Assembly: GCA_016184105.1 (NCBI GenBank) | Contig: JACPDI010000010.1 | Location: 62,001-126,000, forward strand | Source of the DNA: Acidobacteriota bacterium | GTDB taxonomy: Bacteria > Acidobacteriota > Vicinamibacteria > Vicinamibacterales > 2-12-FULL-66-21 | Length of the DNA stretch: 64,000 nucleotides | Reading direction: 5' to 3' | Shown: positions 29,905 to 38,448 of the stretch, piece after piece | Position numbering within the stretch: the stretch's first letter is position 1 | Layout: the number at the start of each line of letters is the position of its first letter | Program-made: the position numbers and the translations under genes | The notes under the pieces: generated by a model | What the model saw: the letters and a program-made list of their open reading frames with translations, nothing else | Databases searched by the model: none | What the model was told of the DNA's origin: nothing

Positions 29905-30204
29905 ATGAACGTGCTCGTCGACGTGTCCATCGTGCCGCTCGGCGTCGGCATTTCCCTCTCGAAATACGTCGCGGCGTGCGAGCGCGTCCTGCAGGACGCA
30001 GGGCTCCGGCCCCAGCTCCACGCATACGGGACGAACGTCGAAGGTGAGTGGGACGCGGTCTTCGCGGCGGTCAGACGCTGCCACGAGGTGCTCCACGAGA
30101 TGGGCGCGCCGCGCGTCAGCACCAACCTCCGCGCCGGCACGCGCACCGATCGCGATCAAACCCTGCAGGACAAGGTCGACAGCGTGAAGGCGAAGCTCCG
30201 GTGA
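29905..30204 (+). CDS. MTH1187 family thiamine-binding protein (DUF77)
   Basis: A 99-residue protein with the family opening VDVSIVPLGVGISLSKYV, the LHAYGTNVEGEWDAVFAAVRRCHEVLHEMGAPRVSTNLRAGTRTD core and a helical end. Members form ferredoxin-like oligomers and several bind thiamine or related heterocycles; the physiological role is not settled. Its stop overlaps the GTG start of the hemerythrin gene by 4 bases (GTGA), so the two are co-translated. The start is supported by a -10 box just upstream. Confidence 0.88.
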   Translation: MNVLVDVSIVPLGVGISLSKYVAACERVLQDAGLRPQLHAYGTNVEGEWDAVFAAVRRCHEVLHEMGAPRVSTNLRAGTRTDRDQTLQDKVDSVKAKLR

Positions 30205-30860
30205 AGCTCATCGACGATCTGCGTGCCGAGCACGATCTCATCGAGCAAGTCGTCGGATCGCTGAGGACATTCGTCGACCTTCGCCTCCGCGGCGAGGGGG
30301 CCACGGCCGACGGCCCCCGGTTCGTCGCCTTCTTCCGGCTGTTCGCCGGCGACTTCCACCACGCCAAAGAGGAGGACACGCTGTTTCCCGCCCTGCAGAC
30401 GATGGCGGATCTCCCCGCGCAGGGTCCGATCGCGGTCCTCACCGAGGATCACCGACAGCTCGGGGCGGTGCTCGGCGAGATGGACGCGCTGCTCGCAACC
30501 GCGTCGCTCAACGATGAGCAACGCCAGCGGCTGCAGATGCTGGCCATCGAGTACTCCCACGGGCTGTGGCATCACATCGACGCCGAGAACTCCGTGCTGC
30601 TGCCCGAAAGCGAGGGACGACTCGCGAAGAAGGGGGTTCGGGAATTGCCGTCGCGCCCGATGACGGCTGACGAAGCCGCCGCTCGGCAGTCGGCCGCCGA
30701 TCTCCTCGAGCGATATCCGCCCGCGTTCGACCCCACCATCGTTCGCGGCGAGGGCTGTATCTCCTGCCGCGCGTTCCCCGACGCCTGTCGCGGCCTCGAG
30801 CGCGAGTGGTGGAACGAATGGGAGTGGGAGGAATTCGAGGATCACGTCGGCGGCGACTGA
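30201..30860 (+). CDS. Hemerythrin HHE domain protein with cysteine-containing tail
   Basis: A 219-residue cytoplasmic protein. The iron-ligand pattern of a hemerythrin four-helix bundle is present: His11, His54 with Glu58 (DFHHAKEEDTLFP), His84 (LTEDHRQL), and His120/His124 with Glu129 (YSHGLWHHIDAEN). Such proteins bind O2, NO or iron and some act in nitrosative stress. After the bundle comes a 60-residue tail with Cys186, Cys189 and Cys196 (GCISCRAFPDACRG) and a Trp/Glu-rich end. The start is GTG at 30201, overlapping the thiamine-binding protein stop. Confidence 0.85.
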   Translation: MKLIDDLRAEHDLIEQVVGSLRTFVDLRLRGEGATADGPRFVAFFRLFAGDFHHAKEEDTLFPALQTMADLPAQGPIAVLTEDHRQLGAVLGEMDALLATASLNDEQRQRLQMLAIEYSHGLWHHIDAENSVLLPESEGRLAKKGVRELPSRPMTADEAAARQSAADLLERYPPAFDPTIVRGEGCISCRAFPDACRGLEREWWNEWEWEEFEDHVGGD

Positions 30861-30950: not shown

Positions 30951-33146
30951 ATGCCAGGCGTCGCCACGCCGGAATCCCTCCGCACCCTGCCGACCGACGA
31001 AATCCGCCAGCTTCTCTGGCGGCTGTCCGATCGCTACGCGCACCAGCTCCTGATCCAGAGCGCGCGCGCCGTGGCGCGCGGGCCGGTGGCGCGGCTGGTC
31101 GCCGCGGGGCAGCGGCACTCCCATGACTGGACGCCGGAGAAGGCCGCCCTGCTCCAGGAGTTCGACGCGGCGGGACTGACCTCGGTCTACCTCGATCCGG
31201 AACACGGTGGATTCATCGACGGGCCGAAGAACCTGGCGCTCGCGCTCGTGGCCTTCGAGCTGGCGTGGGTGGACGCGGGCGCGGCGACCTGCAGCCTCGC
31301 CGGTCACCTCGCGCTCGCACCGATCCACGAGCGCGGCACGCCGGAGCAGCGCGCGTTCTATCTCTCGCGCACGCTGCCCGCGCAGCCCGGCGAAGATCGC
31401 CAGACGTGGCGCGGCGCGTTCTGCCTCACCGAGCCCATCCCCTACGTTGGCGTCGAGACCGGGCTGCTCAACGGGAAGCTGCGCGTCGATTCGTGGGACG
31501 GCGCGGAGCCAATGCTGCGCGTCGAGAAACGCGGCCGCTTCATCACCAACATGGGCTTTGCCACCTTCGTCACCGCCGCGGTCGATTCAGACGACGAGCG
31601 CATCAAGGGAAGCTGCATGGTCGTTCTCGAAGAGACCGACCCCGGCGTGTTCGATCGCGGCACGCCCACGCGGAAGCTCGTGCACCAGCTCTCATCCACC
31701 AACGATCCGATCTTCAGCCTCACCGTCCCCGCCAGCCGCATCGTCGGCGGCTACACGGTGGAGAACGGCGTCATCGTGCCGCGCTTCAGCCACGGCGAGG
31801 TGATCGAGGCGGTGTTCCGCCGCACGCGCGTCACGGTCGGCCTGATGACCGCGGCCAAGCTGCTTTCGGCGGTCGAGCCCGTACTCCGCTACCAGCGCAC
31901 ACGATTCCGGGGCGGCGAATCGATCGCGCCCGGATCGCCGCGCTACGAGCTGGGCCTGCAGCAGCGCGAGGACGCGATCCATCGCCTTGTCGACATCTGG
32001 GCGGCGGGGGAGGCGAGCGCGTCGATCGGCTTCGCGACCGCGCGGCTGTTCGACGAGCTGGACCCGATCGAACGGCGCAAGCAGGAGATCTTCGCCGAGC
32101 GCGGCATCGCCGGCGCGCGTGCGCAGATGAGGGCGATGGCGAAGATTTCCGACGAAGCCGTCGCGCATCTCCGCGATCCGCAGGCGAAGCCCGCCGACGA
32201 GCTGGTGAACTACGCGCTGCTGGACTCGGTGGCCAACGTGCTCTGTCCCGCCGTCAAGCTCTGGAACACGGGGCAGGGCGCGACGATGATGCGCGAGGCG
32301 GTCAGCCTGATGGGGGGCTACGGCATCACCGAGGATTGCCCCGGGTTCCTCGGCTACAAGTGGATGGATTCGCAGCTCGAAGCCACGTACGAAGGCCCCG
32401 AGGCCGTGCAGCGGCGGCAACTGTCGATCACGATGACCAACGACGTGTTTCTCGCGCAGTTCCACTTCTGGACGCGCGAGATGCGCGCAATCGCGGCGCG
32501 GCGTCCGGGGACCGGCGCGTGCACGATCGCCTCGGCGATGCAGCTGTGGTCGTGGACCCTGGCGCACCTGCAGCGCACCGCGGACGCCAACGGCGCGAAG
32601 TTGTACCAGGGCAACAGGCAGGGGGTGACCTTCCCGCTGGCCGACGCGCTCTGCTGGCTGCTGGCGGCACGCTGCCAGATTCTCGACGTCCTCGAGCTGG
32701 AAGCGCGCGCCGCGGAACGGCCGGACCTCGCGGACGTGTCGGCCGGCTACGTCGCGTTCCTCAGCGATCTGTGCCACGTGCAGGCGGCGCGGGCCGCCGG
32801 CGAAGCCGGGCGCATCTGCACTGAACTCGTCTATGGATACCGGCGCCATCCCTCGTGGGACGACGCGTGCGCGGCGGGGTGCTGCCAGAGCGAGGCCGCG
32901 GACGCGCTCGAGGGCCTGATCCCCGGCTTCGGCGCCAGCGCCGTGACGTACATGGACGTCATCGAAGCCGACGGCGCGCATCCGGACAAGGCAGGTCCCT
33001 GCGTGCGGTTTCCGGCGCTGCAGACGTTCCAGCGCCTTCGCGCGAAGCTCGACGGCTGCCTGACCGGCGCGCGTCTGGCGAAGGACCGCGCCGCCGACGC
33101 GCTCACGAAGGTGATGATTCCCGAGGCGCCGGACTATCCCGCATGA
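30951..33146 (+). CDS. Large acyl-CoA dehydrogenase family flavoprotein
   Basis: A 731-residue protein, nearly twice the usual acyl-CoA dehydrogenase length. The ACAD core shows FCLTEP, ITNMGFATFVTAA, the helical region LMTAAKLLSAVEPVLRYQRTRF, MGGYGITED, and the catalytic Glu in ATYEGPEAVQRRQLS. The N-terminus and a C-terminal helical part of about 200 residues are extra; the latter is Cys-rich (GRICTEL, AAGCCQSEAADAL). It should oxidise an acyl-CoA or similar thioester and pass electrons to the ETF encoded downstream. An AAAGGA ribosome binding site precedes the ATG; the stop overlaps the next start (ATGA). The substrate is unknown. Confidence 0.85.
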   Translation: MPGVATPESLRTLPTDEIRQLLWRLSDRYAHQLLIQSARAVARGPVARLVAAGQRHSHDWTPEKAALLQEFDAAGLTSVYLDPEHGGFIDGPKNLALALVAFELAWVDAGAATCSLAGHLALAPIHERGTPEQRAFYLSRTLPAQPGEDRQTWRGAFCLTEPIPYVGVETGLLNGKLRVDSWDGAEPMLRVEKRGRFITNMGFATFVTAAVDSDDERIKGSCMVVLEETDPGVFDRGTPTRKLVHQLSSTNDPIFSLTVPASRIVGGYTVENGVIVPRFSHGEVIEAVFRRTRVTVGLMTAAKLLSAVEPVLRYQRTRFRGGESIAPGSPRYELGLQQREDAIHRLVDIWAAGEASASIGFATARLFDELDPIERRKQEIFAERGIAGARAQMRAMAKISDEAVAHLRDPQAKPADELVNYALLDSVANVLCPAVKLWNTGQGATMMREAVSLMGGYGITEDCPGFLGYKWMDSQLEATYEGPEAVQRRQLSITMTNDVFLAQFHFWTREMRAIAARRPGTGACTIASAMQLWSWTLAHLQRTADANGAKLYQGNRQGVTFPLADALCWLLAARCQILDVLELEARAAERPDLADVSAGYVAFLSDLCHVQAARAAGEAGRICTELVYGYRRHPSWDDACAAGCCQSEAADALEGLIPGFGASAVTYMDVIEADGAHPDKAGPCVRFPALQTFQRLRAKLDGCLTGARLAKDRAADALTKVMIPEAPDYPA

Positions 33147-34885
33147 GCGTCGCACGCGGACAGATGGACGTCGACGTCGTCTGCGCCGGCTTCGGGCCGG
33201 CGACGGGCGGTTTCCTCACGACGCTCGGGCGCGCGCTGACGCGTGAGGACGGCGGCGTGCGGCTCGAGAGCCGCGTGTCGCCCGGCATGCCGCTGCAGGT
33301 GATGTGCTTCGAGCGCGCGGACGACTTCGGCGTCGGCGTCTCGGGCGTCGTGACGCGCGCGCGCGGCCTTCGCGCGTCGTTCCCTGATTTCGAGCGGGCG
33401 CAGATCCCGCTCTGCACGCGCGTCACGGGCGAGAAGCTTGTCTACCTCCTCGATCCGATTGGCGCGAGCCGCCGATCGCGTCCGCTGCGCGCGATCGATG
33501 TGCTGCTTCGCGGCGCCGGCCGGGTCGCAGGTGTTCGTCATCATGCCGTCGTGCTGCCATTCATGCCGTCTTTTCTCAGGAAGCACGACGGGTTCGTGCT
33601 CTCAATCGGGCAGTTCGGGCAGTGGCTCTCGGGACAGATCATGGCCGGCGGGGGCGCGCAGATCTGGCCCGCGTCTCCCGTAGACGGTCCGCTCTTCGAT
33701 GGAGACAGCGACCGCGTTGCGGGCGTGCGGCTCGTGGATCAAGGCACCGATCTGAAAGGCGAGCCGACCTCCGCCTACACGCCGGGGATGGACGTGCGGG
33801 CCGCGCTCACCGTCGTCGGCGATGGGCCCGTGGGCGCCGTCGGGCGCGCGCTCGACGCGCGCTTCGGGCTGCCGGAGGGGCACGCTCGCGACCAGTGGGC
33901 GCTCGGCATGAAGATGGTGGTCGATCTCCGCGAGGGGGTCGATCTCGAGCCGGGCACGGTGATTCATACCTTCGGGTTTCCCGAGCCGGAGATCTTCGGG
34001 TTCCTGTACGTGCTCAAGCCGGGCACCGTGTCGCTCGGCATCTTCGTGCCCTCGTGGTTCGACAGCCCGGTGCGCACCGCGTACCGCTACCTGCAGCACT
34101 GGATGCAGCATCCGTACTTGTGGCGATGGCTCGAGGGAGGATCGCTGCGGTCGTGGGGCGCGAAGTCGCTCCAGGAGTCGGGGCGGCGGGGCGAGCCGCA
34201 CCTGGTTGGTGACGGGTACGCGCGTATCGGCGAAGGATCGGGCAGCACGAATGCGCTGACCGGCTCCGGTGTGGACGAGGCGTGGACGACCGGCGCGCAG
34301 CTTGCTGAAGCGGTGATCGAGCTGGCGGAACGCGGTGACCCGTTCACGCGCGAGAACCTGGAGCGGACCTACGTGCGGCGGCGCCGTGCGAGCTGGCTGG
34401 ACCTCGAGCTGCGGATCGCGGAGAGCGCGCGGAACGGCTTCGCCCGCGGGATGCTGTGGGGGATGTTCGGGATGGGACTGGCCGGCCTGACGGGCGGGCG
34501 TTTGCGGCTGCCACGAATGAGCGATTCGCGGCGACCACAAGACGAGCATTGTTCCAGCCTCGACGAGCAGGGCTGGCCGGCGATCGTGCATGACGGCCGG
34601 CTGCTCGTGACCCACCAGGACGCGCTGTTGATGGGCGGCAAGGTGCGGGCGGCGCCGGGCTATGCCGACCACGTGCGGATCAAGGAGCCCGGCGTGTGCC
34701 GCGACTGCCGCGCGCGCGTCTGCGTCTCGATGTGCTCGGGGCAGGCGATCACGTCGGCCGGCGCCGAGGGAATTGCGTTCGATCGCGAGAAATGCGTTCA
34801 CTGCGGCGCGTGCGTCTGGAACTGCGCCACCAGCAACCTCGAGTTCCGCGCGGGCGCGGGCGGGTTGCATTCGGTTGAGAACTGA
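33143..34885 (+). CDS. ETF:quinone oxidoreductase-like flavoprotein with C-terminal iron-sulfur domain
   Basis: A 580-residue protein. The N-terminal Rossmann fold (VDVVCAGFGPATGGFL) and the ALTVVGDGPVG, GYARIGEGSGSTNALTGSGVDEAW segments match the FixC/ETF-QO flavoprotein group. The C-terminal domain has eight cysteines in two sets: 519, 522, 527, 531 and 551, 554, 557, 561 (CVHCGACVWNC). Known ETF-QO uses four cysteines for one 4Fe-4S cluster, so a second cluster is possible here. It would take electrons from the EtfAB encoded next and give them to the quinone pool at the membrane. It overlaps the dehydrogenase gene by 4 bases and precedes etfB by 2. Confidence 0.85.
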   Translation: MSVARGQMDVDVVCAGFGPATGGFLTTLGRALTREDGGVRLESRVSPGMPLQVMCFERADDFGVGVSGVVTRARGLRASFPDFERAQIPLCTRVTGEKLVYLLDPIGASRRSRPLRAIDVLLRGAGRVAGVRHHAVVLPFMPSFLRKHDGFVLSIGQFGQWLSGQIMAGGGAQIWPASPVDGPLFDGDSDRVAGVRLVDQGTDLKGEPTSAYTPGMDVRAALTVVGDGPVGAVGRALDARFGLPEGHARDQWALGMKMVVDLREGVDLEPGTVIHTFGFPEPEIFGFLYVLKPGTVSLGIFVPSWFDSPVRTAYRYLQHWMQHPYLWRWLEGGSLRSWGAKSLQESGRRGEPHLVGDGYARIGEGSGSTNALTGSGVDEAWTTGAQLAEAVIELAERGDPFTRENLERTYVRRRRASWLDLELRIAESARNGFARGMLWGMFGMGLAGLTGGRLRLPRMSDSRRPQDEHCSSLDEQGWPAIVHDGRLLVTHQDALLMGGKVRAAPGYADHVRIKEPGVCRDCRARVCVSMCSGQAITSAGAEGIAFDREKCVHCGACVWNCATSNLEFRAGAGGLHSVEN

Positions 34886-34887
34886 CC

Positions 34888-35688
34888 ATGGGTTACCACA
34901 TCGTTGTCTGCGCCGGGATCGTGCCCGATCCGCTCCAGTCGCTGGAGCCGGTGATGGGCCCCGGCGGCCCGGGACTGAAGAACGAGGCCATGCTGCCGGC
35001 CGTGCTCGATCCGTGGGGCGCGCACGCGTTGTACGAGGCCGCGCATCTCGCCAGGCAGCACGCAGACTCGAAGGTGTGGCTGGTGAGCTTCGCGCCGAAG
35101 GCGAAGCTGCAGCAGGTCATGATGACGATCGCGCAGAAGGTTGCGTTCGAGCTGGTCGCCATCGACGGCGCCGCCCACGGTTTCACCGACGCGTCCGGGG
35201 TGGCGGCCACGATCGCCGAGGCGGTCGCCGGCATCGCGGGCCTGGACCGATCGAAGCTGCTGCTCTTCGGCGGGTGGGAATCCGCCTCGCGCGCCGCGGG
35301 CGCCACGCTGTCGATGGCCGGCGAACGGCTCGGCATCACCGATCAGTTCTTCGGCGTGGACGGCATCACCGTCGGCGCCGACGGTTCGTTCGAAATCCTC
35401 GAGCGCGTTGAAGGCGGGCAGCACCAGGTCTCGAACTGCGGCGGCCCCCCCGCCGTGTTCGGCTGGGCGACTGGCAGCCTTCACGAGCCGGCGAACAACC
35501 CGCAGCTCGGCATGACGAACATGCGCGCGTTGATCCCCGCGCTCCAGAGAGCGAAGGCTGCTTCACCGGCGCCCGCGGGCACGTTTGCCGGCGTCGCGGT
35601 TCCCTCGCAGCGGCGCGAGACGCGCATCGTCAAGGACCAGTCGCCTGATGCGATCGCGAAGGAGATCGTGGAGTGGATCAGGCAATGA
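34888..35688 (+). CDS. etfB: Electron transfer flavoprotein, beta subunit
   Basis: A 266-residue ETF beta-type protein: YHIVVCAGIVPDP at the N-terminus, LDPWGAHALYEAAHLARQH, the KLLLFGGWESASRAAGATLSMAGERLG helix-strand region and a C-terminal GVAVPSQRRETRIVKD. It pairs with the alpha subunit to carry electrons from the acyl-CoA dehydrogenase to the quinone oxidoreductase. Several consensus stretches are more divergent than in mitochondrial or fix-type ETF. It lies 2 bases after the ETF-QO-like gene and overlaps etfA by 4 bases (ATGA), showing tight coupling. Confidence 0.85.
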   Translation: MGYHIVVCAGIVPDPLQSLEPVMGPGGPGLKNEAMLPAVLDPWGAHALYEAAHLARQHADSKVWLVSFAPKAKLQQVMMTIAQKVAFELVAIDGAAHGFTDASGVAATIAEAVAGIAGLDRSKLLLFGGWESASRAAGATLSMAGERLGITDQFFGVDGITVGADGSFEILERVEGGQHQVSNCGGPPAVFGWATGSLHEPANNPQLGMTNMRALIPALQRAKAASPAPAGTFAGVAVPSQRRETRIVKDQSPDAIAKEIVEWIRQ

Positions 35689-36722
35689 GCGGGAGCGGAC
35701 CTGTGAAAGTACTGGTGCTGGCGCACAGCGAGGCGGATGGCACGGTCGGGAACGCGGGGCTCGAGGCGCTCGGCGCCGGGCGGGCGCTCGCTGCGGCTGC
35801 CGGCTGTGGGCTTGATGTTGGCCTCGTGGGAGCACACGTCGCTGCCGCCGCCAGACAGATTGGATCCTGCGGCGCCGCGCGCGTGCTCGGCGTGAGCGGC
35901 GAGGCGTTCGCGCAGCCGCGCTACGTGACCGACGCAGCGGCCGCTGAAGCCATCTGCCGCGCGTCTGGCGCCGACCTCATCCTGGCTGCCGGCACCTCGC
36001 GGTGGATGCGCGTGCTGGGCGGCGTCGCCCAGCGGCTTGGCGGCTCCGTGGACACGCACGTGACGCGCGCGACGGCCGCCAACGGTGCGATCTCCGTCGC
36101 ACGGTGGTTTTATCGCCAGCGCATCGAAGGGGAGGTCTCGAGAACGGCCCGGCCCTGGGTGATCGCGATCGAGCCCGGCACGCAGGCGCCGTGGAGCGGC
36201 GCGCCGGCCGAGGTGACGGTCGAGGCCATCAACGCGGCGCCGCCGCCGGTCAGGACGCGCGTGACCGGCGTGCGGTCTCCCTCGTCTGGCCAGCAGACCG
36301 TGCGTCCCGAAGCGGAGCTGCTGCTCGTCGCGGGCGCCGGGTGGACGAAGAAGCAGGCGGACGGGCAGGCGCACGTCGGCGACGCCGAGCGCCTGATCCT
36401 CACCTTCCTCAGGCAGGCGCAAGCCTCCCTCGGCGGCAGCAAGTCGCTCGTCGATCAAAGCGGAGATGGCAACGACGTGCTCGGATTCATGACCCACCTG
36501 AACCAGGTCGGCCAGACCGGCTCGAGCCCGCGGCACCGCAAGGGGCTCGCGACCTGCTGCCACGGCGAGGAGCCGCACGTCGTCGGGTGGCGGTTCATCA
36601 CCGAGCGCAGGGCGGTCAATCTGAATCCGAACTGCGGCTGGGCGCTGGGCAAGGCGGACGTGCTCTACGTCGCCGATGCGTTCCAGGTGATGGCGAAGGT
36701 GAACGACCTCCTCGCGAAGTAG
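35685..36722 (+). CDS. etfA: Electron transfer flavoprotein, alpha subunit, divergent C-terminal FAD domain
   Basis: A 345-residue ETF alpha-type protein. The N-terminal half is normal ([29 protein letters not shown]). In the FAD domain, LGGSKSLVD and QVGQTG (residues 275-279) are kept, but the usual GISGAIQHxAGM and INKDPxAPIF stretches are replaced by [15 protein letters not shown] (Cys291, Cys292) and [14 protein letters not shown]. The flavin environment or partner choice therefore probably differs from standard ETF. It is the last gene of the four-gene operon. The ATG at 35685 overlaps the etfB stop. Confidence 0.83.

Positions 36723-36756: not shown

Positions 36757-38448
<1,692 letters not shown>

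Follow-up and report, generated by a model that had tools for sequence, protein, structure and literature searches.

Sequence analysis of a 64,000-nucleotide stretch from an Acidobacteriota bacterium (the whole stretch is called the window hereafter) led to a module of four intact co-directional genes, ACD-EQO-EtfB-EtfA, at window positions 30951-36722 (+). In our judgment the chances are about even that ACD, EtfAB and EQO constitute a self-contained electron-transfer module, leading from an acyl thioester to a quinone or quinone-like acceptor. Acyl-CoA dehydrogenases (ACADs), ETF and ETF-QO are usually regarded as shared parts of beta-oxidation. The module belongs to a known kind of system, of which it is a deep-branching variant, and probably serves a job that nobody has described; a literature search of partial coverage found no paper on this four-gene set.

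Organization and Conservation of the Module

The first gene, ACD (30951..33146, +), encodes an oversized acyl-CoA dehydrogenase-like protein of 731 aa. It overlaps by 4 bp with EQO (33143..34885, +), whose ATG lies within the sequence ATGA and which encodes a fusion (580 aa) of an ETF-QO-like flavoprotein and a ferredoxin-like domain bearing two [4Fe-4S] motifs. After a gap of 2 bp follows the EtfB-like subunit (34888..35688, +, 266 aa), and a second 4-bp overlap (ATGA) joins it to the EtfA-like subunit (35685..36722, +, 345 aa from its most likely start; the alternative GTG at 35673 is the start of the longest mechanical ORF). These junctions bear out the original prediction of four genes with overlapping or nearly abutting ends. 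That prediction was also correct in that all four products differ from the textbook forms: none of ACD, EQO, EtfB and EtfA reaches any NCBIfam model cut-off, and EtfB scores 24.2 bits against PF01012 (ETF), below the curated Pfam cut-off of 26.7. A hemerythrin-domain gene (30201-30860), 90 bp upstream of the module, and glnS (36757-38448), downstream of it, are both outside the conserved set. Toward its C-terminus the hemerythrin HHE protein has a cluster of cysteines, CISCRAFPDAC.

Scanning GTDB genomes for EQO by peptide patterns revealed at least 64 loci, an undercount since the scan needs exact short peptides. The loci belong to Acidobacteriota, Desulfovibrionaceae, Verrucomicrobiota, Kiritimatiellota, Lentisphaerota, Gemmatimonadota, Latescibacterota, Sumerlaeota and others; the Desulfovibrionaceae include isolates, namely Solidesulfovibrio alcoholivorans, S. 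aerotolerans and Fundidesulfovibrio agrisoli. The order ACD-EQO-EtfB-EtfA was found again in many phyla, and most loci on contigs of sufficient length retain it. Because the set recurs over many phyla at 50-75% identity with its order mostly kept, the module is not a chance arrangement. Its distribution is patchy, and plasmid records gave matches at 25-31% identity only. Some loci have further genes inserted between EQO and EtfB, encoding a radical SAM protein, a secreted protein and others, none of them common to the loci; in one Bryobacteraceae locus, for instance, it is the radical SAM gene (L030:7115-8125).

Concerning the Acidobacteriota, full-length ACD and full-length EQO were detected in the identical seven of 199 genomes, spread over four families, while about 60 of the other genomes have an ordinary ETF-QO instead of EQO. 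If genomes were independent, the chance of hitting the same seven would be 1/C(199,7)=4.5e-13, a value that serves as an illustration only, the seven being non-independent. Genomes picked by EQO contained ACD in 26/26 cases and the module EtfA in 23/26, even where the genes are unlinked; the module genes are far apart in many Kiritimatiellota and Lentisphaerota and in some Desulfovibrionales. Additionally, the four proteins co-vary in their pairwise distances: every pair of proteins gave a correlation (r=0.48-0.76) that was reached by 0/2000 permutations and that partly reflects shared ancestry. These data support the view that the four module proteins evolve together and are passed on as one set. 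ORF clustering around the 64 loci and the unlinked copies yielded no conserved fifth gene; the immediate flanks are mostly unrelated housekeeping genes, and no substrate pathway gene is conserved beside the module among the loci examined.

The Acyl-CoA Dehydrogenase-Like Protein

ACD matches Acyl-CoA_dh_N (4e-11) and Acyl-CoA_dh_1 (7e-8), both above the Pfam cut-off, and its best solved relatives by sequence are butyryl-CoA dehydrogenases. It consists of N, middle and C domains, followed by an extra helical C-terminal domain of about 230-240 aa (residues ~490-730; 32417..33140, +), and no Pfam match was found outside the ACAD core. The AlphaFold (AF2) model (mean pLDDT 83, pTM 0.85) matches in Foldseek the large ACADs 2z1q, FadE5, PA0508 and DmdC (6ijc) at 14-18% identity. 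Residues Y480, E481 and G482 (YEG) are invariant in 33 ACD homologues, and E481, within YEGPE, aligns with the YEGT of butyryl-CoA dehydrogenase; Glu481 is the predicted catalytic base. By its domains, modelled fold and putative catalytic Glu motif, ACD can be assigned to the acyl-CoA dehydrogenase superfamily.

The alignment also displays a variable insert of ~45 residues at ~638-686 (about 32862-33008), with a conserved CxxC, a His and a later Cys. It resembles a metal site and is present in the long ACD forms and missing from those of Desulfovibrionaceae and Kiritimatiellota. Stand-alone proteins 46-48% identical to the C-terminal domain only are encoded in two other Acidobacteriota (L148:8012-8680, - strand, and L149:715-1368, + strand), so the extra domain seems to be separable and linked to ACAD/ETF systems. 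The L148 gene is divergent and adjoins an ordinary EtfB-EtfA-ACAD cluster.

The ETF-QO-Like Protein

EQO matches the ETFQO_UQ-bd domain (PF21162) above the Pfam cut-off (1e-9, 38.9 bits) and contains the GxGPA motif. Its similarity to the porcine ETF-QO 2gmh has an E-value of 2e-25, with a fold TM of 0.79, and its catalytic half is nearer to ETF-QO than to FixC (2e-25 vs 3e-5). The segment of quinone contact is ~2 residues shorter than in ETF-QO. ETF-QO carries one [4Fe-4S] cluster. EQO differs in this respect: its eight cysteines at 519, 522, 527, 531, 551, 554, 557 and 561 are all invariant in 57 homologues, and its C-terminal part aligns with EtfX of T. maritima, a two-cluster ferredoxin. 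Two [4Fe-4S] clusters are described for FixX/EtfX (PMC6085437, PMC10765413). Fer4_ETF_QO (PF05187) has no match in EQO, whereas it does match the ordinary ETF-QO of a gut MAG contig (L133). EQO thus has the ETF-QO fold with a UQ-binding domain, its ferredoxin-like part departing from the single-[4Fe-4S] Fer4_ETF_QO type. The same gut contig (L133:4051-7849) encodes, with that ETF-QO, an EtfB and an EtfA with an N-terminal double 4Fe-4S domain.

EtfB and EtfA

Homology to reference ETFs was confirmed by profile (HH) comparison with probabilities of 99.7% for EtfB and 99.9% for EtfA, and EtfA also matches PF01012 (3e-20). The closest solved relative of EtfA is 5ol2_A of the C. difficile butyryl-CoA dehydrogenase complex (2e-18 by profile), and that of EtfB, by a weak match, is CarD of caffeyl-CoA reductase (6fah_B). 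In EtfB the canonical nucleotide-binding motif GxQAxDxD is replaced by GGxxSASR and the partner-recognition loop is expanded. In the FAD domain of EtfA, QVGQTG is kept, SR has become SK, and GISGAIQH has become CHGEEPH.

In maximum-likelihood trees the module proteins form single clades with 100/100 support, at 3.6 substitutions/site from the references for EtfA and 2.5 for EtfB; such long branches make the attachment point of the clades unreliable, and the EtfB tree gave a long-branch warning. The references were C. difficile, CarE, E. coli FixB/YdiR and the host ETFs for EtfA, and human, Paracoccus, Methylophilus (these three in the EtfB tree only), Acidaminococcus, CarD, E. coli FixA/YdiQ and the ordinary ETFs of the host genomes for EtfB. 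Among these references, which cover some of the five ETF groups distinguished by Garcia Costas et al. (2017), the module ETFs fall outside the clade of standard, non-bifurcating ETFs and also outside the bifurcating (group 2) clades of CarDE, Acidaminococcus and E. coli Fix. Placement of the subunits inside the standard beta-oxidation families, the outcome opposed to the original prediction, was thus absent among the groups tested.

Host Metabolism

ACD is the sole protein with the ACAD N-terminal domain (PF02771) in 11/20 module genomes, 7/21 have no ETF other than the module EtfAB, and no crotonase-family protein above cut-off was found in 8/11 of the sole-ACAD genomes; most hosts being MAGs of unknown completeness, these absences are provisional. 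The pattern repeats across lineages, and in the isolate S. alcoholivorans DSM 5433 ACD and the module ETF are the only ACAD and ETF detected. Since several genomes have only the module ACAD and ETF, they offer no general ETF pool on which the module could draw. Since many hosts have no crotonase and no other ACAD, the module substrate would not be a standard beta-oxidation intermediate in them. The window's own genome is equipped otherwise, with canonical EtfAB, about six other ACADs and several to many crotonases, and with no ETF-QO-like gene found other than EQO, so that sharing with the general ETF is possible there. The idea of a dedicated chain outside the general ETF pool is therefore upheld by strict co-occurrence, co-varying distances, the sole-ACAD and sole-ETF genomes and the separate clades, with the window's own genome as a place where it may not apply.

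Concerning the acceptor, neither MqnA/D nor a crotonase, the family of MenB, was detected in five Kiritimatiellota/Lentisphaerota genomes. Menaquinone may be missing there, which makes a quinone acceptor doubtful in these genomes. UbiA-family genes were found in nearly all genomes searched, these five included, and are a poor discriminator as a quinone marker. The quinone-binding segment of EQO is nearly the same in the lineages of these five genomes and in the others. The originally proposed quinone acceptor may consequently not hold in every host, given these five genomes without the two menaquinone-synthesis markers tested.

Comparison with Known Systems

The mitochondrial and bacterial ACAD-ETF-ETF-QO chain (human/Paracoccus ETF, porcine 2gmh) comprises the same four protein types and offers a plausible electron path, and EQO shares the 2gmh fold. 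The module ETFs belong, however, to another clade, and the module is one operon with one ACAD, carried also by hosts that have no beta-oxidation. Fix/EtfABCX (Thermotoga maritima 7koe, E. coli fixABCX) likewise combines ETF genes, an FAD oxidoreductase and a two-cluster ferredoxin, but the module has C and X as one fused protein, includes an ACAD and has lost the nucleotide motif of EtfB. Bcd-EtfAB (C. difficile 5ol2) and CarCDE (6fah), the best sequence matches of the module EtfA and EtfB, also pair an ACAD with a dedicated EtfAB; their ACADs are ~380 aa long and have no ETF-QO partner, identity is about 20%, and the clade is a different one. Finally, large ACADs (VLCAD/ACAD9, FadE5, DmdC, 2z1q) have a fold with an extra C-terminal helical part like ACD, which is about 130 aa longer than they are and has a C-terminal domain of its own without a Pfam model.

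Proposed Function and Alternatives

By analogy with the established ACAD-ETF-ETF-QO chain, ACD would take two electrons from the alpha and beta carbons of a particular acyl thioester, using Glu481 as base and FAD, and would pass them to its dedicated EtfAB. EtfAB would transfer them to EQO via two [4Fe-4S] clusters and FAD, and EQO would deliver them at the membrane to a quinone or a similar acceptor. Such a chain would need neither the general ETF of the cell nor any further acyl-CoA dehydrogenase. The gene set, its conservation and co-occurrence, the deep separation, the fold class and the motifs are observed; what we infer in this scheme is the direction in which electrons flow, the occupancy of the cofactor sites, the quinone acceptor and the thioester substrate. 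Counting against it are the altered motifs for FAD binding in EtfA and nucleotide binding in EtfB, the shorter quinone-contact segment of EQO, the lack of a conserved pathway gene beside the module and the five genomes without the menaquinone markers. With regard to the original reading of a chain for one substrate, the self-contained chain stands, while one acyl-CoA as the substrate is not supported.

A broader reading, which we hold tentatively, is that the module represents an unrecognised ETF group that is obligately complexed with a dedicated acyl-thioester dehydrogenase and with a FixCX/ETF-QO-like fusion protein, four proteins in all. The complex would act outside beta-oxidation (e.g., in anaerobic lipid synthesis), and its acceptor in Kiritimatiellota/Lentisphaerota would possibly not be menaquinone.

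Electrons could also flow in the opposite direction, from a quinol or other donor through EQO and EtfAB to an ACD that reduces an enoyl thioester, in a respiratory or redox-balancing role comparable to crotonobetainyl-CoA or caffeyl-CoA reduction. Sulfate reducers and gut anaerobes are among the hosts, many of which have no beta-oxidation, E. coli couples an ACAD-type reductase with FixABCX, and the closest solved EtfA and EtfB come from the C. difficile butyryl-CoA dehydrogenase and caffeyl-CoA reductase complexes. We nevertheless find such reverse flow unlikely, as these likenesses are weak (about 20% identity), some hosts are Acidobacteriota and Verrucomicrobiota, groups not known to respire in this way, and a CoA ligase, CoA transferase or transporter, expected for respiration of one particular acid and present beside the ydi genes, is not conserved nearby.

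A role in fatty-acid or lipid biosynthesis would have acyl-ACP or acyl-CoA oxidized to the 2-enoyl thioester, for remodelling or oxygen-independent unsaturation together with FabI. Many hosts have neither a crotonase nor other ACADs, and in two Acidobacteriota genera (gaps of about 55 and 110 bp) and in Fundidesulfovibrio (gap about 615 bp) the next gene downstream of the module EtfA, on the same strand, encodes a FabI-type enoyl-ACP reductase. This adjacency (L154:5330-6112, L153:5912-6685, L064:14421-15188; two phyla), spotted post hoc at 3 of many loci only, is a weak hint of a tie to fatty-acid synthesis. No isomerase or elongation gene is conserved and the distribution is patchy, all of which leads us to regard this role as quite unlikely.

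We rate as improbable a bifurcating complex of the Fix/EtfABCX kind, in which EtfB and the extra iron-sulfur cluster would serve NADH/ferredoxin and ACD would be the high-potential arm. The eight ligand cysteines of EQO are like those of FixX/EtfX and the nearest ETFs by profile are of the bifurcating type, but where bifurcating EtfB has a motif of the GRQAIDGDxxQ type the module has GGxxSASRxAG, and in the trees its clade stands apart from the bifurcating ETFs, so the bifurcation considered in the original prediction found no support. An ordinary beta-oxidation set that has merely diverged is highly improbable, as the module occurs in genomes without another ACAD or crotonase and is deeply separated from standard ETFs, even if in the window's genome, which has other ACADs, canonical EtfAB and several crotonases, the module could feed into the same pathway; for the whole family, a standard beta-oxidation role is largely refuted by the sole-ACAD, crotonase-free hosts.

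The module ETFs represent a branch outside the groups used here to separate bifurcating from ordinary ETFs. As a cultured host, S. alcoholivorans DSM 5433 makes the function of the module directly testable. A scattered, strictly co-inherited private set in hosts without beta-oxidation points to an acyl-thioester redox step that is probably undescribed.
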